From a virus: 50,902 nucleotides of DNA. The notes under the pieces were generated by a model. The model was not told where the DNA came from, searched no databases, and saw nothing but the letters and a program-made list of their open reading frames with translations. The stretch spans positions 1 to 50,902 of the IMG/VR virus record IMGVR_UViG_3300032087_005175, one strand, 5' to 3'. A program made the position numbers and the translations under genes. This document shows, one piece after another, positions 1 to 50,658 of this stretch (positions within the stretch are counted from its first letter, which is position 1; each line of letters opens with the position of its first letter).

Positions 1-86
1 GGGGTATATAAACCGATGTACACTTTGCCGTTATCGTATCCCTCAAATCCAACGAACATTCCAAAAATCGTGTAGAGCGTCATCAT
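1..86 (-). CDS. Hypothetical protein, partial (runs off the left edge)
   Basis: Only the first 28 codons are inside the window. The reading begins MMTLYTIFGMFVGFEGYDNG and stays open to the edge. A GGAG Shine-Dalgarno sequence lies 8 nt before the first ATG, and a second ATG follows directly, so the start may be at 86 or 83. It is the last visible gene of the leftward small-gene cluster. No family is recognised. The real-gene call rests on the ribosome binding site, strand agreement with its neighbours and the open frame. Confidence 0.6.
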   Translation of the reverse strand, partial: MMTLYTIFGMFVGFEGYDNGKVYIGLYT

Positions 87-275
87 TTTTCATTCTCCGT
101 GGGTTATCCTTGCCAATACTTTATATATCGACCATCCACACTGAATACTTCACAAAAAAATAAAAATTTTGGGCTTGATTTTCGCTGGCTATTTCCATAC
201 AATCGAACCGCCCACATTGGGTGGTACAACCCCCCATTGGGGGTAGAAAAAGCCCTTTTCCCCTCTGCTGGGGGA
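87..275. other. Non-coding stretch with three palindromic GC hairpins
   Basis: I see no convincing gene here. On the plus strand the stretch holds CCCACATTGGGTGG (211-224), CCCCCATTGGGGG (231-243) and CCCCTCTGCTGGGGG (260-274). These are members of the palindrome family described for the left arm. The promoter of the gene at 1-86 should lie here, but no convincing -35/-10 pair is visible. Confidence 0.6.
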
Positions 276-392
276 TTACACCCTGAATACCCACCTAGTA
301 AACATATAAGTAAATAGTAAATGGTAACCCATAGCGAAAGCCCACCCGTACTCTCGTAAGAATGGTTCCAGTGTAAATAGTGGCTCAGGCAT
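276..392 (-). CDS. Small hypothetical protein, 38 aa
   Basis: This 38-codon frame starts MPEPLFTLEPFLREYG and ends WVFRV. Its start lies 6 nt after the stop of the preceding tiny gene, with a GAGG ribosome binding site overlapping that stop. The middle and end are aromatic and hydrophobic (WAFAMGYHLLFTYMF), which could be a short membrane segment. It is the third gene of a tightly packed leftward cluster (467-769, 399-470, 276-392). No family is recognised. The call depends on spacing and the ribosome binding site only. The stop is followed at once by a GC hairpin (260-274) that may end the transcript. Confidence 0.45.
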   Translation of the reverse strand: MPEPLFTLEPFLREYGWAFAMGYHLLFTYMFTRWVFRV

Positions 393-398
393 ATTCCC

Positions 399-470
399 TC
401 ACAAACAAATGAATACCACACTCACCACACACATAATAACAGCGTAACAAATCACCATAGACAATATCAT
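399..470 (-). CDS. Tiny membrane peptide, 23 aa
   Basis: This 23-residue frame (MILSMVICYAVIMCVVSVVF plus ICL) is hydrophobic from end to end, as expected for a single membrane-spanning helix. It has three cysteines and no charged residue. Its ATG overlaps the TGA stop of the preceding gene in the classic ATGA arrangement, so it is probably translated by coupling. GGGG in the end of that gene can serve as the ribosome binding site. The role is unknown. Small phage membrane peptides can act in lysis, superinfection exclusion or envelope signalling, but nothing here decides between these. Confidence 0.5.
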   Translation of the reverse strand: MILSMVICYAVIMCVVSVVFICL

Positions 471-769
471 TTTGTTCCCCTTACTGGTAAGTTCCTGATC
501 TGTTGCAGCACATCCGCAACCTGTCCAAAGTTCAAGAATCCGCAAACGTCACTAGTGACCGGAGTATCGTACACTATAGAACCATCGCTGTCAAGCACAG
601 CAACCTCGAATAGCCCCTCCTTTGCACCATAACTACCACTATTCCAGATCACACTAGCACCGTAGCCGTTACTATAGTAGTATTGTTTTTGGTAGTGTCC
701 TTCGCCAAACCCTGGAACCTTGCCCGTAAAGTTTGCTTCGACGCATTGTAGTGTGTTTACTTGTGTCAT
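467..769 (-). CDS. Conserved phage hypothetical protein, 100 aa
   Basis: The protein starts MTQVNTLQCVEANFTG and has a middle of the form GYGASVIWNSGSYGAKEGLF followed by EVAVLDSDGSIVYDTPVTSD. I recall this pattern (YGxSVI, EGLFEVAVLD, YDTPxTxDVxGxL) from many small phage proteins of unknown function, so it looks like a conserved early gene. The start is supported by AAGGAG a few bases before ATG and by an excellent upstream promoter (797-825). Its stop codon overlaps the start of the 23-aa membrane peptide downstream. No catalytic motif is visible. Confidence 0.8.
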   Translation of the reverse strand: MTQVNTLQCVEANFTGKVPGFGEGHYQKQYYYSNGYGASVIWNSGSYGAKEGLFEVAVLDSDGSIVYDTPVTSDVCGFLNFGQVADVLQQIRNLPVRGTK

Positions 770-796
770 TTTTTTCTCCTTACTTCCTATATCGAA

Positions 797-825
797 ATTC
801 TACCACAAAAACTTTAGCGTGTCAA
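797..825 (-). promoter_or_regulatory. Sigma70-type promoter for 467-769
   Basis: Read on the minus strand, TTGACA (825-820) and TAGAAT (802-797) are separated by exactly 17 nt. The start codon follows about 28 nt after the -10 box. The -35 box lies inside the last codons of the upstream gene 814-1026, where TTG ACA encodes Leu-Thr just before its stop. Confidence 0.85.
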
Positions 826-1026
826 GCGGCCACGAGAAATTTCTCGTCCGAGTCTATCCTCAATGATAAACCTGGCCGGAACAATACTTCTCACACATTC
901 GGCAATCTTGCCATTTCGAGAAAACTTGTTGCGAACAATCGTTTCCAACGTGCGAGCATTATCGTGGTGGAACGTGTTGGTCAGTCCACCGTCACTGTTC
1001 AAAAGTTTAGCAGTGTACATTTCCAT
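814..1026 (-). CDS. Hypothetical protein, 70 aa
   Basis: This small basic protein begins MEMYTAKLLNSDGGLTNTFH and ends GREISRGRLTR. It lies 15 nt after the gene at 1042-1179 and is preceded by a purine-rich GAGAGAAAGAA leader, the same style of ribosome binding site as other genes of this arm. It probably shares the transcript from the promoter at 1223-1251. Its 3' end carries the -35 box of the next promoter. No family is recognised. Confidence 0.7.
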   Translation of the reverse strand: MEMYTAKLLNSDGGLTNTFHHDNARTLETIVRNKFSRNGKIAECVRSIVPARFIIEDRLGREISRGRLTR

Positions 1027-1041
1027 TTCTTTCTCTCTTTC

Positions 1042-1179
1042 TCAACCAACGGTTATTTCGTCATCACTCTCATCACTGATCACCACACAATGCTCTCCGC
1101 ACCGTGGGCAAATCTCGTGGTCAATTTGTGAACCGTACATCGGTTCGTTGCAGCAATCTGATTGAATCATCATTCCCAT
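1042..1179 (-). CDS. Small Cys-rich (zinc-ribbon-like) protein, 45 aa
   Basis: The frame begins MGMMIQSDCCNEPMYGSQID and ends in an acidic tail. Cysteines at residues 9, 10, 24, 27 and 31 form CC and CPRCGEHC motifs typical of small metal-binding folds. AGGAG lies about 9 nt before the ATG, and a strong promoter (1223-1251) sits upstream. It is clearly related to the protein at 2948-3094: both have SDCC and then CPxCGEHCxVIS followed by an acidic end. Structural zinc binding is inferred. The biological role is unknown. Confidence 0.75.
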   Translation of the reverse strand: MGMMIQSDCCNEPMYGSQIDHEICPRCGEHCVVISDESDDEITVG

Positions 1180-1222
1180 TTTTCTTTCTCCTAAACTTTC
1201 TTTCCTTACTTCTTATATCGAC

Positions 1223-1251
1223 ATTCTAGCACATGGAACTTTAGCTGTCAA
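1223..1251 (-). promoter_or_regulatory. Sigma70-type promoter for 1042-1179 and 814-1026
   Basis: Minus-strand TTGACA (1251-1246) and TAGAAT (1228-1223) have a 17-nt spacer. The spacer and the bases just downstream (TCGATATA, then AAGTAAGG) closely resemble the promoter at 797-825, so the two are probably copies of one cassette. Confidence 0.85.
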
Positions 1252-1271
1252 GCAAAATTTTTTGATTTTTT

Positions 1272-1478
1272 TTATTCCCAATTTTTGTATCGCAACCGCA
1301 GCACACCAGCAGCGGCACGGATGCCATTTTCGATAGCTTCACGATCATCCCCCTCAAGGGTGGGGAGATGCTGTTGAGCAACACGAAGCCAAGTCCGAAC
1401 TGTAAAATTGTTCAGCTTGTGGAATTTTTCTTGCAATTCAAAAACACTGGGAACACGACTCATTTCCAAAACACTCAT
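1272..1478 (-). CDS. Hypothetical protein, 68 aa, paralogue of 2089-2274
   Basis: The frame is open further upstream, but a sigma70 promoter (1507-1535) lies inside that extension, so the long form is unlikely. I choose the start MSVLEMSRVPS because an AGAGAG leader like that of neighbouring genes precedes it. The next upstream ATG (MKEREL) would place the start almost on the transcription start. The second half (TVRTWLRVAQQHLPTLEGDD and an Ala/Arg-rich helix) resembles the protein at 2089-2274 (TVLDIWIEVAEQRIPNLRGE). The two look like a duplicated helical family. Function is unknown. Confidence 0.7.
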   Translation of the reverse strand: MSVLEMSRVPSVFELQEKFHKLNNFTVRTWLRVAQQHLPTLEGDDREAIENGIRAAAGVLRLRYKNWE

Positions 1479-1506
1479 TTCTAACTCTCTTTCTTTCATG
1501 CTTGCC

Positions 1507-1535
1507 ATTATACCATAATTATCGTCATTTGTCAA
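1507..1535 (-). promoter_or_regulatory. Sigma70-type promoter for 1272-1478
   Basis: Minus-strand TTGACA (1535-1530) and a perfect TATAAT (1512-1507) have a 17-nt spacer. This promoter decides the start of the gene at 1272-1478, because the longer frame would begin upstream of it. Confidence 0.85.
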
Positions 1536-1640
1536 TAGGTTTCTTGAAAAAATTCTCGATTTTTGTGTCAAGAAAATTTGACAAAACTTTTTCATTTTTC
1601 GGCACGTTTGGCACGAGGTTTGCTGGCTGTTTGCATAATT

Positions 1641-1655
1641 TAACCCGAAGGGTTA
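1641..1655. repeat. Perfect hairpin TAACCC-GAA-GGGTTA
   Basis: A 6-bp perfect inverted repeat with a 3-nt centre lies in the gap between 1272-1478 and 1700-2029. Read on the minus strand its RNA would be CCC-UUC-GGG, a stable UUCG-type tetraloop stem. It has no T-run, so it is not a canonical terminator. Confidence 0.6.
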
Positions 1656-1664
1656 GCTAGTACA

Positions 1665-1689
1665 GGGGGGTCAACCCCCCATAGGTGGG
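1665..1689. repeat. Compound G/C palindrome GGGGGGTCAACCCCCC plus hairpin
   Basis: GGGGGGTCAACCCCCC is directly joined to ATAGGTGGGG, so the central C-tract can pair with either flanking G-tract. The GTCAACCCCCC part also occurs at 2079-2089 and 2326-2336. At those two places it abuts a -35 box on the minus strand. Confidence 0.75.
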
Positions 1690-1699
1690 GAAAAGCGCT

Positions 1700-2029
1700 T
1701 TACTCCCCCTCGAATGGGGAGGTTTCCTCCTCAGATAAGCTAGCATACTGAGCAGCCAACGCAGCCACCCGTTCGGGGGATCCTGGTTTGCCTACTGGGA
1801 ACCGCATACGATCTTCACCCCCTATAAGGCGGGGATCAGCTTTTGGGCTTTTGATTCGCAATTCCCGCAAGCCTGAGCGTGAAAACTTCAATACCTTTTC
1901 ACTCTGCACCATACCACCATCGGCGGTAGTCTTTTGGCAAGGAATGGCGATACCCTTCCAGACTGAGGATACTTGATTCCAAGCATTGCGAGTGATCGGG
2001 AACTGCGACATCATTTTTTCGGTACTCAT
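1700..2029 (-). CDS. Hypothetical protein, 109 aa
   Basis: The start MSTEKMMSQFPITRNAWNQV is chosen over an upstream ATG because it follows a GAAAGAGAGAAAAAA leader and a promoter (2055-2083). The protein has a Trp-containing N-terminal part, a basic middle (SRSGLRELRIKSPKADPR) and an Ala/acidic C-terminus. Two GC palindromes lie inside the coding sequence (1703-1721 and 1817-1834). The first sits at the extreme 3' end and encodes the terminal residues (TSPFEGE), so the palindrome has shaped the protein end. No family is recognised. Confidence 0.65.
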   Translation of the reverse strand: MSTEKMMSQFPITRNAWNQVSSVWKGIAIPCQKTTADGGMVQSEKVLKFSRSGLRELRIKSPKADPRLIGGEDRMRFPVGKPGSPERVAALAAQYASLSEEETSPFEGE

Positions 2030-2054
2030 TTTTTTCTCTCTTTCTTGTGTGTGA

Positions 2055-2083
2055 AGTATACCAAAAGTTTTTTGTGCTGTCAA
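2055..2083 (-). promoter_or_regulatory. Sigma70-type promoter for 1700-2029
   Basis: Minus-strand TTGACA (2083-2078) and TATACT (2060-2055) have a 17-nt spacer. The -35 box is directly preceded by the G-tract of a GC palindrome (2081-2099). Confidence 0.85.
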
Positions 2084-2088
2084 CCCCC

Positions 2089-2274
2089 CTATCGGGTGGC
2101 TAGCTCTTTTCTTGCATGAATCAAGGCCCGCATGACGGACAGTTGTTCTTCACCCCTCAGATTAGGGATGCGTTGTTCGGCAACCTCAATCCATATGTCT
2201 AGGACAGTGGTGCCCATATCTGCGAAATATTTAGCGTAGCAGTTAGCGGTAGGGTAAATCTTAACATTTTGCAT
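2089..2274 (-). CDS. Hypothetical protein, 61 aa, paralogue of 1272-1478
   Basis: The start MQNVKIYPTANCYAKYFADM follows AGGAG with good spacing. The frame extends 12 codons further up, but that part lies in the promoter leader. The C-terminal two thirds align by eye with the protein at 1272-1478: TV-x-x-x-W-x-x-VA-(E/Q)-Q-x-x-P-x-L-x-G-(D/E) and then an Ala/Arg helix. Both are short and probably all-helical. The stop codon is inside the GC palindrome at 2081-2099. Function is unknown. Confidence 0.7.
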   Translation of the reverse strand: MQNVKIYPTANCYAKYFADMGTTVLDIWIEVAEQRIPNLRGEEQLSVMRALIHARKELATR

Positions 2275-2300
2275 TTTCAATTCTCCTAAGTGTGAAACAG

Positions 2301-2330
2301 ATTCTAACAAAACTTTTCCTGCGGTGTCAA
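2301..2330 (-). promoter_or_regulatory. Sigma70-type promoter for 2089-2274
   Basis: Minus-strand TTGACA (2330-2325) and TAGAAT (2306-2301) have an 18-nt spacer. The palindrome CCCCCCTCGCTAGGGGG (2331-2347) directly abuts the -35 box, the same arrangement as at 2078-2099. Confidence 0.85.
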
Positions 2331-2364
2331 CCCCCCTCGCTAGGGGGCTGGTTTAGATACTACA

Positions 2365-2892
2365 CTATGCCACGATCACCCCCTCCTCTGAGGGATCCCA
2401 TAGGATCGTTGGGATTTTGCTGTTCGTCATGTCGCCCCGAAAGTAGATATCGTATCCTTCCGACTTGCGTTTGGCGTTTGATGCCCACCGTTTGACGTCT
2501 CGACTACTAGCAGTCTTAACTACTACCCCATTGGTGGGGTGTACGAAAGCGAAAAACAGAATGTCGAATAGTTCAGGCTTGACGCCGCAGAAATAATACT
2601 TTCCCGACGTTGGGCCGAGTAGACTAGACTTCACTTCACCCCGAACAATCCTACCCCCCACGTAGAGGGATATGTCATGAGTATGAGCACAACCCCCCAT
2701 ATGGGCGGAGTCTATGCCGAATCGTTTCATATGATCGACAATCATAAGCTCAACGCTAGTCCCCCTATCGGTGGGGGACATTTGAGCTAGGTCGAAACTA
2801 AGCTCACTCTTTTGGGGGGTATATACTTGGTTGTCGCCTCGCTTGCTGGCAATGGCATTTTTTGCGTTAGCTAAATCAAGCATTGTAAACAT
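2365..2892 (-). CDS. Putative PD-(D/E)XK superfamily nuclease, 175 aa
   Basis: The frame is open to 3060, but the start MFTMLDLANAKNAIASKRGD is chosen because a promoter (2922-2951) and the end of another gene lie upstream and an AGGAAAAAA leader precedes it. The core holds a conserved-looking Glu helix (SVELMIVDHMKRFG), then HDISLYVGGRIVRGEVKSS. The Asp, followed about a dozen residues later by Glu-x-Lys, is the usual PD-(D/E)XK arrangement of restriction enzymes and Holliday-junction resolvases. A role in cutting host or foreign DNA, or in recombination, is inferred. Five GC palindromes are embedded in the coding sequence (2378-2395, 2525-2540, 2651-2671, 2692-2708, 2759-2779) without breaking the frame. 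Confidence 0.7.
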   Translation of the reverse strand: MFTMLDLANAKNAIASKRGDNQVYTPQKSELSFDLAQMSPTDRGTSVELMIVDHMKRFGIDSAHMGGCAHTHDISLYVGGRIVRGEVKSSLLGPTSGKYYFCGVKPELFDILFFAFVHPTNGVVVKTASSRDVKRWASNAKRKSEGYDIYFRGDMTNSKIPTILWDPSEEGVIVA

Positions 2893-2921
2893 GGGTTTTT
2901 TCCTAGTGGTGATTTTTGTCG

Positions 2922-2951
2922 AGTCTACCATATTGTATCGGCAATCGTCAA
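2922..2951 (-). promoter_or_regulatory. Sigma70-type promoter for 2365-2892
   Basis: Minus-strand TTGACG (2951-2946) and TAGACT (2927-2922) have an 18-nt spacer. The stop codon TGA of the upstream gene 2948-3094 is part of the -35 box. Confidence 0.7.
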
Positions 2952-3094
2952 GCGGAAATTTCATATTCTTCCGAAATAACTTCGCAATGCTCACCGCAAG
3001 CGGGGCAGCATTGGGCATCGTCACGGCAGTATTCGCCGCAGCAGTCTGAAACGTATGCAATTTCGATTCTAGTGTATTCTTCGATTCTACTCAT
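2948..3094 (-). CDS. Small Cys-rich (zinc-ribbon-like) protein, 48 aa
   Basis: The start MSRIEEYTRIEIAYVSDCCG follows GGAG at 8 nt. Seven cysteines (residues 18, 19, 23, 29, 30, 33, 37) include CPACGEHC. The match to the protein at 1042-1179 (SDCC, CPxCGEHCxVIS, acidic tail) shows a duplicated family. Binding of one or two zinc ions is inferred. A zinc-ribbon of this size could bind nucleic acid or a host protein. Its promoter is not clear from the sequence. Confidence 0.75.
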   Translation of the reverse strand: MSRIEEYTRIEIAYVSDCCGEYCRDDAQCCPACGEHCEVISEEYEISA

Positions 3095-3546
3095 TTTCGA
3101 TTCTCCAAAAGGTTTCGTTTTCAATACTAGTGTATAATGCAATCACCGTGCCATTCGGAAAAAAATTTTTTTGCCTAGAAAATAGGGCTTTTTTTATCGT
3201 ATCCCCCATTGGTGGGTGAGGCATTTTGCTACAAAGTGTAGCTTTTTGCAATGAATCTTGCAACACACCCCCTATCGGTAGGGTAAAATTTCAGATTTTG
3301 TCTCATAGTTGGACAAATTGTAGTTATATCCCCCATAAGAGGGGAATAGAAGCTATTATCCCCCAAAAGGGGGGAAAAGCTGTTTCGCTTGTCGCTTGGA
3401 AGCATACCCCCCAAAAGTAGGGTAGGATAATCATACCCCCATTAAGAGGGGTGGGTTTTTTTGTTTGCCACCATAGAGGGGATCACCCCCCCAAAAGCGG
3501 GGGGGCATCTAAACACAATAGGCACCCTCTCAAAAAATTAACCGAT
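3095..3546. repeat. Gene-free stretch with a dense cluster of GC palindromes
   Basis: About 450 bp contain no convincing gene. At least seven palindromes sit here (3203-3508), roughly one every 25-75 bp towards the right end, culminating in CACCCCCCCAAAAGCGGGGGGG (positions 3484-3505). A weaker hairpin with a T-run (GCCTA-gaaaa-TAGGGC, about 3173-3196) could end transcription. The 3' end of the gene at 3547-3765 and the leader of 2948-3094 bound the stretch. Confidence 0.7.
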
Positions 3547-3765
3547 TTAATTTATGTTTATGTTATCGGTACTCTGTTTCTTTCGTGGCCTGCCCCTACT
3601 TTTCTTTACATTCTCTTTTCGTCTCTGTTGGCGCACCATATCAGATGTAACATTCTCACCACTAATTTTGCTCATTCTAGCAGCAATTTCTCTATCTGTC
3701 ATAGTTCCCGCATTATCCTTTATAAACCCTCGCTCTGCAGCACTCCACTTCTTATAATTAGCCAT
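3547..3765 (-). CDS. Small HTH / AT-hook-like DNA-binding protein, 72 aa
   Basis: The protein starts MANYKKWSAAERGFIKDNAG and continues with a helix-turn-helix-like segment (MTDREIAARMSKIS). A very basic part with SRGRPRKK follows, which has the RGRP core of an AT-hook. The N-terminal pattern (E-x-x-F/Y-I-K-x-N, then IAA-x-(M/L)) matches the start of the protein at 4579-5385. It is transcribed away from the late operon, with the divergent control region 3766-3844 between them, so it may regulate the switch from the left arm to the late genes. That role is inferred from position and DNA-binding features. Confidence 0.7.
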   Translation of the reverse strand: MANYKKWSAAERGFIKDNAGTMTDREIAARMSKISGENVTSDMVRQQRRKENVKKSRGRPRKKQSTDNININ

Positions 3766-3844: not shown

Positions 3845-3991
3845 ATGACTAAATCGGTTGATTCCACACTTTGCGTTAAAGCCTGTGCCAATGTTGATGT
3901 AACTCAGGATCTAGAAAAATGTGAAGGAAAATGCGTCAGAGAATTACTAGATGAGCAAAAAGAAAAAGAAAACCAAAAAGAATCTAGCTAA
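3845..3991 (+). CDS. Small Cys4 protein, 48 aa, first gene of the rightward operon
   Basis: The frame begins MTKSVDSTLCVKACANVDVT and ends in a Lys/Glu-rich helix (ELLDEQKEKENQKESS). Cysteines at residues 10, 14, 26 and 30 (C-x3-C-x11-C-x3-C) suggest a paired-helix disulfide or metal site. AAGGAG precedes the ATG by 6 nt, the best ribosome binding site in the area. Its last 41 nt overlap the start of the sigma factor gene in another frame, so translation is probably coupled. No family is recognised. A partner or modulator of the sigma factor is possible but speculative. Confidence 0.7.
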   Translation: MTKSVDSTLCVKACANVDVTQDLEKCEGKCVRELLDEQKEKENQKESS

Positions 3992-4586
3992 CGGAGTAAC
4001 AGAAGAAGAGTTTTTAACCGTTTTAGACAACATAAGCAAACGGCTAGGAAACAAATTCAAATTCGGCTATCATACCTTTGAAGATATGAAGCAGCAAGCT
4101 GCAATATTTGCCCTAGAAGGACTAGAACGATACGACAATAAAAGACCATTAGAAAACTTCCTATGGACCCATGTTCGTAACCGCCTTTTTAATTATAAAC
4201 GAGACAATTATCAAAGGCCCGATAAACCTTGTTTAACCTGCCCCTTTTATGATAAGCACTTTCAAAAAAGCGACAGTCAATGCACTGAGTATAAAGACAT
4301 TAGCGAGTGCTCACTTTACTCATCATGGCTCGAACGAAACTCGGCCAAAAAGAACATAATGAAACCAGTAGGAATAGACAGCCTTAGTTTTAATTTTGCC
4401 AATAAAACAGATGTTGACCAAGAAGTGTCCAACGAACAAATATTTGAAATTATAGAAAGCAACCTGCCCACACAATATCGTGAACTTTATCTTAGATATC
4501 GCTATGGCGACAAAATCAATAAAAACGACCAAAACAAAATTGTAAATATCATACGTAAAATCCTAGAGGAAAATAAAGATGGCTAA
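3951..4586 (+). CDS. Phage RNA polymerase sigma factor-like protein, 211 aa
   Basis: Residues about 38-88 (FGYHTFEDMKQQAAIFALEG, then LENFLWTHVRNRLFNYKRDN) match sigma70 region 2, the part that binds core polymerase and opens the -10 box. A Cys4 segment (C94, C97, C111, C120, beginning DKPCLTCPFYDK) follows and looks like an inserted zinc-binding element. The C-terminus (residues about 160-205) is a helical region that could act like region 4. The size is like T4 gp55-type late sigma factors. It heads the packaging operon and probably redirects host polymerase to late promoters. The N-terminus is a poly-lysine run. The start overlaps the preceding gene. Confidence 0.75.
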   Translation: MSKKKKKTKKNLANGVTEEEFLTVLDNISKRLGNKFKFGYHTFEDMKQQAAIFALEGLERYDNKRPLENFLWTHVRNRLFNYKRDNYQRPDKPCLTCPFYDKHFQKSDSQCTEYKDISECSLYSSWLERNSAKKNIMKPVGIDSLSFNFANKTDVDQEVSNEQIFEIIESNLPTQYRELYLRYRYGDKINKNDQNKIVNIIRKILEENKDG

Positions 4587-6207: not shown

Positions 6208-6663
6208 ATGAGCTTACCTACCATCATCATAGATACGAGAGAACAACAACCGTGGCAATTTCCTAATCATACTACGGCTGTTAAGAAATTAGATACAGGT
6301 GACTATTCTCTAGAGGGACTAGAGAATGTACTATGTATTGAAAGAAAGAAAAACACTTCGGAATTTGCTAAGAATATTATTGAGAAAAGATATGATGACT
6401 GGACTATGAGAATGGCCGAGTTCAAACATAAATATTTGTTACTTGAATGTTCTTTAGCAGATGTATATAGGTTTCCTGAGAAATCAGGCATCCCAAAATA
6501 TTTGCTGAGCAAAACCAGAATTAGTTCCAAGTTTTTGATTAAGAAACTACTAGAATTGCAAATACTACATAATATTCATGTGTTGTTTTGCGACTCTTCT
6601 TATACAGCATCAAAGATAGCTGAAGATATTATGTATAGGGTATACAAAAATGAGCAAGAATGA
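6208..6663 (+). CDS. ERCC4-type (XPF/Mus81 family) nuclease, 151 aa
   Basis: The motifs of the ERCC4 nuclease fold appear in order: IIIDTREQ (D9, R11, E12), GDYSL (D32) and CIERKKNTSEF (E45, R46, K47). They form the catalytic (V/E)ERKxxxD-type site, with Ser-Glu replacing the usual terminal Asp. The protein is only the nuclease domain, without the usual helix-hairpin-helix tail. Such phage proteins cut branched DNA. Placed immediately before the large terminase, it may resolve branches in replicating DNA before packaging. It starts right after the TAA of the previous gene, and its end overlaps the terminase start. Confidence 0.85.
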   Translation: MSLPTIIIDTREQQPWQFPNHTTAVKKLDTGDYSLEGLENVLCIERKKNTSEFAKNIIEKRYDDWTMRMAEFKHKYLLLECSLADVYRFPEKSGIPKYLLSKTRISSKFLIKKLLELQILHNIHVLFCDSSYTASKIAEDIMYRVYKNEQE

Positions 6664-8680
6664 TAGTATATTAGATGACGCATGGTTAGGACTAGGCGAT
6701 CTATCTCTTATCGACACGCCTAATAATCCTATGATAGGGCGCAGAAAGTATGACATAGAACATCCTGATTACCATTTGTTAAAAATAATGCGTAACCCTG
6801 ATTATATTGGGACCACAGCTAAGTTATTATTTGGCATAGAGTTGCATCCAATACAAATAGCTATCTTACAAGAATTTTGGGTGCGTCCGTTTCCTATGTT
6901 TATTGCATCTCGTGGTTTCGGTAAATCATTTCTAATGTCTATGTACTGTATCTTAAAATGCGTATTTACACCTGGTACTAAGATTGTTGTCGTAGGTGCC
7001 GCCTTTAGACAGAGTAAGATTATATTCGAATATATGGAAACTATTTGGAGAAATAGTCCAATATTAAGGAGTATTTTCAGTGGCAATGATGACGGTCCTC
7101 GCAGAGACGTTGATCGCTGTACAATGAGATTAGGCGATAGCTGGACTATTGCTATCCCTATGGGTGATGGTTCTAAAATCAGAGGTTTAAGAGCGCATAT
7201 TATTATTGCTGATGAGTTTGCATCCATATCACCAGATATTTACGAGACTGTTGTAGCAGGCTTTGCTGCAGTGAGTGCTAGCCCTATACAAAACGTAAAA
7301 GAAGAAGCCAAAAAACAAGCGATGAAAGATTTGGGTATATGGAATGAGGAACTAGAAAGCCTAACCAAGAAGATGGGTAACCAGGCTATTATTTCTGGTA
7401 CAGCTGATTACGCATTTAAACACTTTGCTCAATACTGGAAAAGATATAGAGCTATTGTAGAAAGCAAAGGAGATCCTAATAAACTAGAAGATATATTTGG
7501 TGCTGAAGTACCTGATAATTTTAACTGGAAAGACTACAGCGTTATCAGAGTGCCATATGAATTAATACCAAAAGGCTTTATGGATGATAAGCAAGTATCT
7601 AGAGCTAAAGCCACCATTCATACCGGTATATACAATATGGAATATGCCGCAGTATTCGTAGAGGATAGTGAAGGGTTTTTCAGAAGAAGTCTTGTAGAAA
7701 GTTGTGTTGTTAATGACAACAAACCAATTAAGCACTTAGATGAGACTATTGTATTTGATGCAGTTACAAGAGGTAATCCAAAGGCAAAATACGTCTATGG
7801 CATAGATCCTGCTTCAGAACAAGACAATTTCAGTATTGTGGTTTTAGAGCTACACCCAACACATAATAGAGTAGTATATGTATGGACAACCAATAGGAAA
7901 AATTTTAAAGAAAGACAAAAGCGAGGTCTGATTTCTGAACACGATTTTTATGGTTTCTGCGCCAGGAAGATCAGAGATCTAATGAAGATATTTCCTTGTG
8001 AGAGAATTGGTCTTGATGCTCAGGGTGGTGGTATAGCAATCGAGGAAGCTTTACACGATCCGGTTAGACTACAACCAGGCGAACATTTAATATGGCCTAT
8101 TATTGATTATGACACGAAGAAGTCCAAAGATACTGATGCCCAGCCAGGTTTACATATTCTGGAACTAGTTCAATTTGCCAAAGCTGAATGGACAGCTCAA
8201 GCTAATCACGGCCTACGTAAAGATATGGAAGACAAAAAACTATTGTTTCCTCGTTTTGATAATTTCTCCTTAGGTTTAGCAATGGAGAAAGAACAGAAAA
8301 ATATTGCAGAAGATGACCTTAATCCTCTTTACGATAGCCTCAGTGAGTGCATACTAGAAATAGAAGAACTTAAAGATGAGCTTACCACTATTGTTATGAC
8401 TCAAACTAGTACCAGTGCTGGAGCTAGAGATCGATGGGATACTCCAGAAGTAAAACTAAGTGGTGGCAAAAAGGGCAGACTACGCAAAGATAGATATAGC
8501 TCTCTTATTATAGCGAATATGCTTGCTAGACAAATGACTAATGTTATAGCTCCTATTAATTATGAGGTAGTTGGAGGTAATGCGAGTAACGTTGGAAAAA
8601 CCACCGGAGACATGTATAAAGGCCCAGACTGGTTCACTAGTGCAGCCAACGACGATATTTATACGGGAATTTACAGATAA
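6650..8680 (+). CDS. terL: Terminase large subunit (packaging ATPase and nuclease), 676 aa
   Basis: The ATPase domain holds Walker A S87-RGFGKS and Walker B IIIADE (184-189), with IRGLRAH before it. The nuclease domain (RNase H fold) has D386 (YVYGIDPASEQDNFS), D456 (ERIGLDAQGGG) and D562 (NPLYDSLSE), the expected acidic triad. The motor pumps DNA into the prohead through the portal and cuts it. The length is somewhat larger than the common 450-600 residues, with an insert between Walker B and the nuclease (about residues 205-245). The start overlaps the end of the ERCC4 gene by 14 nt. It is the last gene of the packaging operon. Confidence 0.95.
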   Translation: MSKNDSILDDAWLGLGDLSLIDTPNNPMIGRRKYDIEHPDYHLLKIMRNPDYIGTTAKLLFGIELHPIQIAILQEFWVRPFPMFIASRGFGKSFLMSMYCILKCVFTPGTKIVVVGAAFRQSKIIFEYMETIWRNSPILRSIFSGNDDGPRRDVDRCTMRLGDSWTIAIPMGDGSKIRGLRAHIIIADEFASISPDIYETVVAGFAAVSASPIQNVKEEAKKQAMKDLGIWNEELESLTKKMGNQAIISGTADYAFKHFAQYWKRYRAIVESKGDPNKLEDIFGAEVPDNFNWKDYSVIRVPYELIPKGFMDDKQVSRAKATIHTGIYNMEYAAVFVEDSEGFFRRSLVESCVVNDNKPIKHLDETIVFDAVTRGNPKAKYVYGIDPASEQDNFSIVVLELHPTHNRVVYVWTTNRKNFKERQKRGLISEHDFYGFCARKIRDLMKIFPCERIGLDAQGGGIAIEEALHDPVRLQPGEHLIWPIIDYDTKKSKDTDAQPGLHILELVQFAKAEWTAQANHGLRKDMEDKKLLFPRFDNFSLGLAMEKEQKNIAEDDLNPLYDSLSECILEIEELKDELTTIVMTQTSTSAGARDRWDTPEVKLSGGKKGRLRKDRYSSLIIANMLARQMTNVIAPINYEVVGGNASNVGKTTGDMYKGPDWFTSAANDDIYTGIYR

Positions 8681-48100: not shown

Positions 48101-50658
48101 GTACAGATTTCTTGTTTGCCAATCAAATGTATTTTCCTATTGGCACAGATATTTCCGATCTAGAAGTTGGCATGCAGGTATACGGCCCGTTTGTACCGTA
48201 TGGTACATATATAACTGAGATTAATAGAAGTACTGCTTCTGGTGGATGCGGACCCGTTATTACTATAAGTCAATATGTTGACGACGAAATTACTGGAGGT
48301 GTTTTTGGTAATTGTTCTAGATATTATTCTTTTTATTTTTCAAAATTAGAAACAACTAAAAAAATAGATATAGTTTATCCATTAAGATCCAACAAGGCTC
48401 AGCTTTTTGAGTATGGCCTTAGATTCGGGCAAATTTATATGCCAGTATTTTGCTCATACGCCTATTATCACAAGTGGGTTGGTGTGCCAGTAGGACCATA
48501 CAAAGGCGTTATTAAAATTGCTGGTAAAAGTCCAACTTTATATCCTAGTCAAAATTTTTCTTCAACTACTGGCGATACTAGAAGCTCTTGGGATATGGGA
48601 TATAGACCAGTTTCTTTAAGTGCCTACGAAAGTAAAATGACTCAACCAGGCAGTTTGATAAACGAAACTTATAGTGATCTTAGATGCAAAGGAACTTTCC
48701 CGTTTTTTGATATACAAGGCTATCCATGTCCCAGTATTTTCTGCCCAACATCACTAGATCCTTGTTTTGTCTGTATAGCTTTTGATGCTTATGGTGTAGG
48801 CGGCAATGGTGGAAGATCTTTTAACAATCCCTGTTATGCTCAAGATATACTAGCGTATGATGGTACTTCATTTTTTAATTATGACATTAATCCTAATGGT
48901 ATTTTTCTTTGGGAGGGAGAAGGTGGTATTCGCAGATACGATCCATTGCAGGACTTAGATTATTTAATAGCTAATTCTGGGACCGGATGGGCTGGAAATG
49001 CAGACTTTCCTGCTGGAACCGTACAAGATCCTTTACATAGACCTATCATAGATGGACATACTGGAGCAGCAGGTGTCGCTAATGGATACATCAACCCTTC
49101 TGTTGAAGTAACCAGAAATCCACAAAAAGATCCTAGACCAATGAGCCTAGACACTGCTGCACACCCTATTACGTATGGAGAGGTTGCTGATACTCCTTTT
49201 TATGTATATCAGCCACATGGTCATGTACATTTCCTAGTGATTTATAGGCGTAGGCTAGGTTGGGGTGAACCTAAATATGCATTTGATCAGTGTGGAAATG
49301 AAACACCAGATACTTTAATATATACGGAACCTGATCCTATTGGAAATCCTGGTGTATTTTTACCTTATCCTGAATATAGTTGTGCTCCTGGTTATGCAAC
49401 TTTCCGTGGTAAGAATACCGCTACTGTTAGAGTTCTTATGGATAATTTGCACGTTAACGTAGTTAAAGATATTCATGGTCAATATCCAGAAAAGGCTCAT
49501 GATATTATCATAGATAATCATTCAAATTTTGATACTGGAATAATACTTCCTTCAGAATCTGGAACAGAATGGACTTTAACTACACCACTATATAATCCTT
49601 GGGAAAATGCAGAATATGACAGATTGTATCCTTGCACTGATAGAAGAGTATATGTAAGAGAAGAAACTTTTCATGGAAATGTGAATGTTGGTAATGAAGA
49701 TAATCCTTGGTATTGTTATCAATTGCCAGAAAAAGTCAAAACGTGTGGAGACACCAATTCAGTAATATCAGAAACTTCTGCTTTAGAATTAATAGATTTT
49801 GGTTATACTCTTGAAGGTATGCAAGAACTTGCAGAACAGAAATATCAATGTTGTAGACCATATGCAAGAGGATGTTTTTGTCCTTTTGGGTATTATGATA
49901 AATTTGGCTGGAGTTTGCTGGACAACGGTGCCTATCTTCATATCGCAGCGATACCAGATCCAGATAATTGCTTTGATTCTGTATTTGAATGGGAATTGAA
50001 TATAGATTTATCTGAATATGGATGTCCGTGTGCTACTTACGGTACCCAAACATCTGCTGGTACAACCCCGCAGGGTATAGGTCAATCATTCCCTCTTGAG
50101 GGTCATGATTGCTGTGAATATCCTGGTTCACAACCATGTCCTATTTACGCATCAACTCTTTTTAGTGGCACATTTTTTATAGCAGGTGCTGGAATAGAAA
50201 TTTGGATAGAATATTATTGGGATAAAGAAGATAAATTTCCAGGTAATGATATGTGGATCAGGTTTAGGGGGAGATTCGTTGGACCGGGAGATGATTGGTC
50301 AGAAGGTGGGTTTTTTCATCAAGACTGGATAAGCAGAGGATCAAATTGTTATACTTGTGAACATTGTGCTAATGATGGTTCATATGCAGATTTTCTTAGA
50401 AATGAAATGTGTTGCTCTGAAGATCCCACCGCCTGTGCTTTATTACCCGATATAGAGTTAGAAACAGAATGGGCAAAAGTTCCTTGTCCAGAAGATATGG
50501 GAGGTAGTGTATCGCTATCTCTTGCTGGAGAAAAGATGAATGCAAGCTTTACATTTAAAGGTAATTGTCTACAAGGTTTGATATATGATGTTAATGGAAT
50601 TGCGTTGAGTAGTTCAGATGATAATTGTGGCTTAGGTATACCTATTATATGGGGTTGA
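45118..50658 (+). CDS. Very large multi-domain baseplate / adhesin protein, 1846 aa
   Basis: Domains in order: an N-terminal helical part (to about 110); a cupredoxin-like beta domain (about 142-245, SGHPFAIQ at 171-178 and LYYACANDGD from about 221); three tandem cadherin/VCBS-type beta repeats starting at GTNDVPIITD (about 246), GTNDPVILNT (about 378) and the segment after 490; then a beta-rich remainder that becomes very Cys-rich (about 38 Cys in the last ~860 residues: CTCDENG, YQCCRPYARGCFCPFG, CYTCEHC). This is the style of an exposed receptor-binding or glycan-binding tail protein. The start is 2 nt after the stop of 40367-45115. Confidence 0.65.
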   Translation: MDNYTALEQLSHIYHAYNGLPKAEALMCIHNTIGLIFDSGTIVPSGEMPVTESALTTAIIEKYSDYYQNIRAEGAKVERSFLKLYQLDQLDKTKALSIENFNDITDVKLSEECVNNSGIGCDQPIPIDVMHSGFNFECKLYSGVPLFGRYIPNATLDLSAGRTYLFNIDSSGHPFAIQTVAEPYNSGSLVPLSNNPTATGTIELEIPKSGLWINNQQYKTLYYACANDGDKLHFDNYENINFTIIGTNDVPIITDIKDNFIGVAEEVDATGQIILANGKVRLLDLDFEDTLTYTITPLTFFGQLTSPDRFSIELEADPSGDLLTNAGYVDMVWKYSGLPTNLDFLRFGQTLPLRWNLKFNDGHQNSNTVPISIYLYGTNDPVILNTGLDSVMSGTVTALPNYSTDILSTEGYFYFQDPDLGDVHRTYYEKISGNHGVLGLSLDEANKKVTWIYDVSNVELWTLSSGMVVEEVFRIYVADNYGSSFSEDISISLSGVDQFGTQSIDYDISQYTTFNCNPSGTGITLIETNFPFYKSGEFCLSGISINFDDKVSLTATVEISGRTSGLPVSSGQVLDMLSYNLDKENEKITWVFDSKPEAFNYLRLNDNLNISYQIRIAEDKEGGIINIKPPFQPYIVEPRYDAYLEPGTHDYIDSKYWGTNERIPLKYGGLSDIKVFFDRNTNCVDINNFKYLASGSLLLDNIRIPFHPQIISEDQDVFAGYKPSDLISQNGNWGWNNFLYTSELSESQKRKYILQIGKNYEDILKEYDEKGEVSPYLYSTKWPAEKVYVSFEPSFIGVSGIHYESGDPPLINVITDKGELLCSGEPVAYRNISLVDIRPNVYAVNTYLNSQLATNSTFVTKCSSPIIGYFLTADNQPFGSYFQLEYMVKNGQSAYTLSALSVLVQNREWHRDAGHALLSTSIEIDNDEIVDIIELSNAVETFGIISWAEGYDGAIRSDEDGLSTLGKITKVGSIRGTFATVCTCDENGDIADCGCTDFLFANQMYFPIGTDISDLEVGMQVYGPFVPYGTYITEINRSTASGGCGPVITISQYVDDEITGGVFGNCSRYYSFYFSKLETTKKIDIVYPLRSNKAQLFEYGLRFGQIYMPVFCSYAYYHKWVGVPVGPYKGVIKIAGKSPTLYPSQNFSSTTGDTRSSWDMGYRPVSLSAYESKMTQPGSLINETYSDLRCKGTFPFFDIQGYPCPSIFCPTSLDPCFVCIAFDAYGVGGNGGRSFNNPCYAQDILAYDGTSFFNYDINPNGIFLWEGEGGIRRYDPLQDLDYLIANSGTGWAGNADFPAGTVQDPLHRPIIDGHTGAAGVANGYINPSVEVTRNPQKDPRPMSLDTAAHPITYGEVADTPFYVYQPHGHVHFLVIYRRRLGWGEPKYAFDQCGNETPDTLIYTEPDPIGNPGVFLPYPEYSCAPGYATFRGKNTATVRVLMDNLHVNVVKDIHGQYPEKAHDIIIDNHSNFDTGIILPSESGTEWTLTTPLYNPWENAEYDRLYPCTDRRVYVREETFHGNVNVGNEDNPWYCYQLPEKVKTCGDTNSVISETSALELIDFGYTLEGMQELAEQKYQCCRPYARGCFCPFGYYDKFGWSLLDNGAYLHIAAIPDPDNCFDSVFEWELNIDLSEYGCPCATYGTQTSAGTTPQGIGQSFPLEGHDCCEYPGSQPCPIYASTLFSGTFFIAGAGIEIWIEYYWDKEDKFPGNDMWIRFRGRFVGPGDDWSEGGFFHQDWISRGSNCYTCEHCANDGSYADFLRNEMCCSEDPTACALLPDIELETEWAKVPCPEDMGGSVSLSLAGEKMNASFTFKGNCLQGLIYDVNGIALSSSDDNCGLGIPIIWG

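Follow-up and report, generated by a model that had tools for sequence, protein, structure and literature searches.

Promoter-early stem-loop (PeSL) cassettes were reportedly described in T4-type phages by Arbiol in 2010 and by Comeau in 2014. In cyanobacteria, the palindrome HIP1 is one exact octamer that occurs genome-wide and is abundant in coding and non-coding DNA. A passage of PMC4503421 presents the PeSL as a stem-loop combined with an early promoter and links this design to shuffling, and part of PMC3950731 proposes a PeSL-like motif in haloarchaeal virus HGTV-1, i.e., beyond T4. The present analysis concerns a family of palindromes, each comprising a C-run, a short gap and a G-run, in the left arm of IMG/VR record IMGVR_UViG_3300032087_005175, which was analyzed over its full length (bases 1-50,902; hereafter the window). 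In this DNA, the small genes of the left arm read leftward and the structural genes read rightward. We lean towards an explanation in which a sequence-specific element forms punctuation and shuffling cassettes, is probably read on the sense transcript, and is recognized by the same factor where it occurs in coding sequence.

Palindrome content of the window

Units were defined as C4+/N2-9/G3+ or C3+/N2-9/G4+. Scanning the window placed 22 C-run/G-run palindromes within bases 1-3530; the remaining 47 kb held one, a weak copy at 50066 (CCCCGCAGGG). Dinucleotide shuffles of bases 1-3530 (n = 500) yielded a mean of 2.2 units and a maximum of 8. The first-pass annotation had described about 20 units packed into the left 3.3 kb, and had named an even distribution over the genome or an equal frequency in shuffled sequence as grounds for abandoning the idea. 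The description was accurate, the distribution is not even and the shuffles fall short. Outside the left arm, C-first units were fewer than expected (1 versus 4.5). Control hairpins in which the G-run comes first numbered 5 in bases 1-3530, an enrichment not comparable to that of the C-first units. Ten of the 22 palindromes lie within genes (~5 per kb) and 12 outside them (~7.5 per kb). The earlier count had been at least nine within genes, including five in various frames of the 2365-2892 gene; these five were confirmed, in three frames.

Palindromes are also zoned in relatives of 224 kb and 96 kb: 15 of 24 lie at 38-44 kb of G013, and 21 of 24 at 62-74 kb of G003. Searching viral contigs for the exact 17-mer CCCCCTATCGGTGGGGG returned four contigs, approximately the chance expectation for such a collection by our own estimate, and was uninformative. 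No curated Rfam covariance model reached its gathering score in the window and eight related loci, MicA (E 0.17) being below threshold.

Coding copies and synonymous codon choice

The coding copies, and the gene that holds five of them, are as follows.

1349-1365, minus strand: palindrome in the 1272-1499 gene (LPTLEGD); alone not significant (p 0.36)
1675-1719, minus strand: palindrome pair; 1705-1719 codes for SPFEGE at the C-terminus of the 1700 gene product and 1675-1690 lies past the stop codon of that gene
1768-1779, minus strand: palindrome in the 1700 gene (SPERV)
1818-1834, minus strand: palindrome in the 1700 gene, encoding DPRLIGG; present in 18 of 23 homologues
2153-2167, minus strand: palindrome in the 2089 gene (IPNLRG)
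2365-2892, minus strand: gene for a predicted PD-(D/E)XK-type nuclease with five coding palindromes; invariant D73, E86 and K88
2379-2394, minus strand: coding palindrome (PSEEGV); present also in relatives L088 and L089
2526-2539, minus strand: coding palindrome (HPTNGV); present also in L088 and L089
2654-2669, minus strand: coding palindrome (SLYVGG); present also in L004, L088 and L089
2693-2705, minus strand: coding palindrome (AHMGG); present also in L088 and L089
2761-2777, minus strand: coding palindrome (SPTDRG); missing in L088

When the 2365-2892 gene was aligned with five homologues, the closest relatives had nothing inserted at the palindromes. Of the five sites, four are preserved in L088 and L089, and the fifth reads TCT CCA CTT GAT CGT GGA in L088 versus TCC CCC ACC GAT AGG GGG in the window. 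Because orthologues agree in length and amino acids but differ in codons, which switch to CCC or GGG, the coding copies are, to judge from these alignments, codon replacements at equal length and not insertions. The first-pass annotation had pictured mobile units invading coding sequence, which the replaced codons and unchanged length contradict. More generally, mobile hairpins spreading by insertion, as mitochondrial repetitive hairpins or REPs do, would suit the many copies, their variable centres, their presence inside and between genes and the recurrence of regulatory segments in the relatives' arms. However, coding copies of the inserted kind expected of mobile hairpins (RHE, REP) were not seen in the closest orthologues, which largely refutes this origin for coding copies; moreover, there is no common core beyond the runs and the flanks do not pair. 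We consider such an origin very improbable.

A by-product of protein motifs would be another source, in which conserved Pro..Gly motifs (DPRxxGG, SPFxEG, SLYVGG) yield the runs by codon chance. Coding copies do fall on conserved Pro and Gly residues, but CCC and GGG at these sites far exceed the usage of the same genes. Specifically, the DPRxxGG motif of the 1700 family has CCC in 18 of 23 cases and GGG in 20 of 23, versus 28 of 122 and 12 of 187 for other Pro and Gly residues, respectively. All three GGT cases are also without CCC (Fisher p ~0.006, calculated by hand); thus, the C-run and the G-run tend to disappear together. The first-pass annotation had asked whether orthologues show the tracts as ordinary conserved codons: the amino acids are indeed conserved, but the codon choice, with its excess of CCC and GGG, is far from ordinary.

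Synonymous codon shuffling, which keeps the protein and the codon usage, was applied to 303 early-strand genes, a set in which some short open reading frames (ORFs) may be spurious. These genes contain 49 CCCC..GGGG units versus 10.8 expected (z 15.6), and the other 15 four-letter G/C arms had z within 2.0. The excess persisted without the two main families (24 versus 7.2), when each family was represented by a single gene (15 versus 3.5) and in ORFs of at least 80 amino acids with the two main families excluded (12 versus 2.8). Intergenic copies, for their part, encode nothing. Codon chance at protein motifs is therefore barely tenable as an explanation.

The coding excess follows the early zone in the window (9 versus 1.8 expected; elsewhere 0 versus 1.2) and in G003 (8 versus 1.9; elsewhere 1 versus 2.2). 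ORFs on the opposite strand of the arms had an excess as well (62 versus 34.7), probably because some of these overlie early-strand sequence. L030 has an early-zone HU/IHF-like gene of 95 amino acids whose RNPxTGE motif is encoded by CCCCCGAACGGGGG.

Intergenic copies, promoters and cassettes

Copies outside genes, and the promoters that two of them adjoin, are listed below.

230-274, minus strand: palindrome pair (230-243 and 260-274), centres ~30 bp apart, directly after TAA in the gene sense, with an AAAA..TTTT spacer
2055-2083, minus strand: sigma70-type promoter TTGACA-17-TATACT with extended -10 (TG)
2084-2096, minus strand: palindrome adjoining the -35 box of the 2083-2055 promoter
2301-2330, minus strand: sigma70-type promoter TTGACA-18-TAGAAT with extended -10 (TG)
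2331-2347, minus strand: palindrome adjoining the -35 box of the 2330-2301 promoter

The minus strand of the left arm contains five promoters with 11 or 12 of 12 consensus positions and an extended -10, and two of these (2083-2055 and 2330-2301) have a palindrome against the -35. Over the window and some 85 related loci, a palindrome stops 0-4 nt short of TTGAC at 36 promoters, every one of them on the early strand. In about 60 relatives, intergenic copies lie past a stop codon and ahead of the following early promoter, and they often abut a near-consensus TTGACA-17-TATAAT. Counting any stem, one of at least 5 bp lies directly upstream of 26 of 177 strong promoters versus 6.5 in shuffles, and includes types other than C/G, such as CTTAC/GTAAG and TTTTT/AAAAA. 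Based on their consensus and on comparison with T4 early promoters (PMC2988021), we infer that these promoters act early.

Other copies are paired, with centres mostly 27-30 bp apart, and often lie near the end of one gene, ahead of the next promoter. In the distant relative G006 (terminase identity of 53%), there are eight cassettes in which two palindromes 38-41 bp apart flank a third GC palindrome, with a gene end on one side and a promoter-like sequence on the other. In these eight cassettes (L087 and L250 of record G006), the central palindrome varies in sequence yet stays palindromic (GTGTGCCGGCACAC, GCGGGGCGCCCCGC). A scan of all viral contigs for a palindrome plus a promoter returned 113 C-first versus 27 G-first contigs, of which 37 and 0, respectively, encode homologues of window proteins. 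The idea that a stop codon regularly stands immediately before the palindrome was rejected (42 versus 36 expected).

Left arms of five relatives (L030, L076, L021, L007 and L010) carry a second intergenic element, in which long inverted repeats, CGTAAGTCCTTA..TAAGGACTTACG, surround the GC palindrome GGGCCGCCC. It occurs in tandem ~53 bp apart (e.g., L030:1006-1135 and 1697-1830), a loose pattern matches it up to 14 times per arm, and no Rfam match to it was found in the arms scanned. Several early proteins of L022, L035 and L044 end in EEDFA or a near variant, directly ahead of a palindrome pair.

Gene exchange at cassettes

Related arms are mosaics, and regulatory segments of 65-130 bp recur several times per arm. 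A cassette feature was defined as a C/G palindrome, a CGTAAG-type inverted repeat or a promoter, and a homology breakpoint was scored as near at a distance of up to 40 nt. Breakpoints lay near such a feature in 44% of cases versus 21% of random positions or, for intergenic positions only, 47% versus 29%; the size of this effect is uncertain because the comparisons are not independent. As judged from these alignments, gene exchange between relatives is concentrated at cassettes, which is the PeSL pattern. The comparison with PeSLs made in the first-pass annotation thus gained substance, from the two promoter-abutting palindromes of the window, the total of 36 with relatives, and the clustered breakpoints.

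Proposed recognition of the palindromes

Across the wider family, 4-8 nt separate the two runs, and numbers drop sharply at 9-10 nt in coding and non-coding copies alike; the C-run, the G-run and this gap range are the conserved features. Neither base pairing extending into the flanks nor covariation within the loop was detected beyond chance, and no trade-off between loop and run that holds total length constant was found. Arms altered on both sides yet still paired (e.g., CTCC/GGAG) were not clearly enriched, in small numbers. Generic pairing is therefore no sufficient explanation, and the identity of the runs matters. Of an earlier claim that the centres vary and that selection acts on the hairpin rather than on its sequence, the first part stands and the second does not, given the lack of enrichment of compensated arms. 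Finally, single changes are tolerated less in the sense-strand G-run than in the C-run, which suggests a directional reader.

Three further features of the window are as follows.

3203-3505, no strand assigned: seven-palindrome cluster (3203, 3268, 3330, 3360, 3407, 3436 and 3486) lying downstream of the 3547-3765 gene; relatives conserve the right part of the cluster
3434-3458, plus strand: intrinsic-terminator-like copy, a hairpin followed by GGTTTTTTTG; in the same place in about ten relatives
3547-3765, minus strand: gene for a small candidate DNA-binding protein with weak AT-hook and D5-like matches; conserved in more than 50 relatives

Plain intrinsic terminators, or hairpins at mRNA ends, placed between early genes and joined by chance coding copies would account for the many copies that separate a gene end from the following promoter and for the one with a conserved T-run. 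However, a T-run follows only 2 of 206 copies on the early strand, so these are not ordinary intrinsic terminators, which combine a GC stem with a T-run along the direction of transcription. On the other strand, 15 copies have a T-run; most represent one conserved place, window 3434-3458 (+), which by sequence is a canonical intrinsic terminator. The enrichment is not matched by other GC stems or by G-first stems, and coding copies exceed chance. We judge plain terminators to be improbable. The 3434-3458 terminator points to the right, in antisense to the early genes, and shortly precedes the 3547-3765 candidate regulator gene.

Alternatively, the palindromes may be DNA operators, to which a phage regulator such as the 3547-3765 protein binds, repressing initiation and blocking elongation in the manner of the stoperators of mycobacteriophage L5. 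The arms are sequence-specific without compensation, and sites occur both at promoters and within early genes. In addition, the 3547-3765 gene lies beside the cluster, and its product is a candidate palindrome reader. On the other hand, no register fits more than 74% of all copies, the gap ranges from 4 to 8, the stricter G-run on the sense strand is unexpected for a symmetric dimer site, and no repressor or integrase was identified. We regard DNA operators as unlikely, though clearly less so than plain terminators.

Overall, we favour a reader of the sense transcript, with a DNA-binding protein as the main rival. One sequence-specific element (C-run, 4-8 nt, G-run) would serve the whole early leftward-transcribed zone of the phage family. 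The intergenic cassette would consist of a stop codon, one to three palindromes, a strong sigma70 promoter and the next small gene. Such cassettes would punctuate single-gene early transcription units, perhaps insulating genes from one another, and would be preferred points for swapping gene content, working like PeSLs. Coding copies were created by codon replacement and are maintained through selection on synonymous sites. Since selection keeps them in this way, they are probably targets of the same factor, which would most likely act on the sense transcript through pausing, termination or processing of early RNA. Of this explanation, the sequences themselves establish the enrichment and placement of the palindromes, their adjacency to promoters, the constraint on synonymous sites, the restriction to the early zone and the clustering of breakpoints; reading at the transcript level, insulation between genes and the single factor are inferred.

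Several results weigh against this explanation. The behavior of compensated arms argues, at the sequence level, against a purely structural RNA role. The fixed register CCC-N7-GGG fits ~90% of promoter-abutting copies, which leaves room for a DNA operator. T-runs are scarce on the early strand, as described above, and paired copies also fold across each other, with z of -0.35 to -3.3 for RNA folding of window stretches. The coding effect in G013 is weak (3 versus 1.4 in the zone; elsewhere 7 versus 6.8), and the related arms are non-independent samples.

The palindrome may even be, although we hold this to be less likely than not, a new kind of dispersed phage recognition site, degenerate and both coding and intergenic, through which one factor might recognize the whole early region as RNA or DNA. 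If so, the site could, for example, let the early region be shut off or processed as a unit.

Candidate proteins and phage family

In the 2365-2892 product, the predicted fold (mean predicted local distance difference test, pLDDT, of 69) came closest to the homing endonuclease I-Ssp6803I (Z 12.0 over 124 residues); restriction enzymes and Hjc resolvases were the next matches. Together with the invariant D73, E86 and K88, this model supports a nuclease of the PD-(D/E)XK kind, in agreement with the first-pass label. The nuclease was rejected as a general reader or cutter of the palindromes because its gene occurs in few relatives (tblastn), whereas the palindromes are widespread.

Among other genes, 3951-4586 (+) weakly matches sigma-70 region 2 (E 0.0003, which falls below the cut-off) and possibly encodes a late sigma factor at the point of divergence. 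The 1041-1178 (-) and 2948-3096 (-) genes encode paralogous short cysteine-rich proteins (DCC..C..CGEHC), and those at 1272-1499 and 2089-2274 also resemble paralogues of one another. In L004 and L089, TGCAAAA repeats resembling origin iterons lie beside the cluster homologous to window 3203-3505. A tRNA search found none.

The terminase gene (6650-8680) has hundreds of relatives among environmental viral contigs, of which 80 were kept (identities of 74-88%), and its best PHROG is phrog_2. The best isolates were Bacillus phages Stahl and Slash (26% identity) and Microcystis phage MaeS (24%), none of which reaches 80% query coverage. Nothing similar to the left-arm DNA was found among isolated phages. 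Based on these comparisons, the window belongs to a widespread uncultured tailed-phage family without T4-like affinity. Terminase relatives are present in two metagenome-assembled genomes (Flavobacteriales and SAR202); as these belong to differing phyla, no host is assigned.

Comparison with known systems

Like HIP1, the palindromes are abundant in coding and non-coding DNA, but the motif is degenerate and limited to the early zone. Stoperators of cluster A mycobacteriophages are likewise many dispersed sites, some in genes, that act on transcription; they are, however, asymmetric 13-bp sites for a repressor and lie predominantly in one orientation (PMC6550527), whereas the present sites are palindromic with a variable gap, symmetric in their runs and otherwise only mildly asymmetric. 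Mitochondrial repetitive or double hairpin elements also comprise hairpins, some of them double or GC-rich, that occur both between genes and within them, but are insertions (PMC2800124), unlike the codon replacements described here. The HGTV-1 motif resembles the cassettes in that a promoter-like motif and an inverted repeat precede most ORFs of one genome side; it differs in its archaeal TATA-like promoter, and the part of PMC3950731 that describes it reports no coding copies.

The closest likeness is to the PeSLs of T4-type phages, in so far as PMC4503421 outlines them. As in those cassettes, a stem-loop lies beside a strong, probably early sigma70-type promoter, between the upstream and the next small early gene, and is repeated in a variable region where genes are swapped. 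Relative to that outline, the stems of the window phage are a specific C-run/G-run element, often paired ~28-40 bp apart and mostly without T-runs. Moreover, the element is also written into coding sequence via synonymous codons, and the phage is not T4-like, its terminase placing it outside the T4-type myoviruses in which PeSL cassettes occur.

PeSL-like punctuation and shuffling is thus seen in a family that is unrelated, uncultured and widespread; the design may accordingly be a general one among large phages. For the coding layer, no precise counterpart was found in the open-access literature. As synonymous sites of early genes carry a specific palindrome, codon choice would there encode a second signal. 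PeSL-like cassettes are a known design; the layer in coding sequence is the surprising addition.

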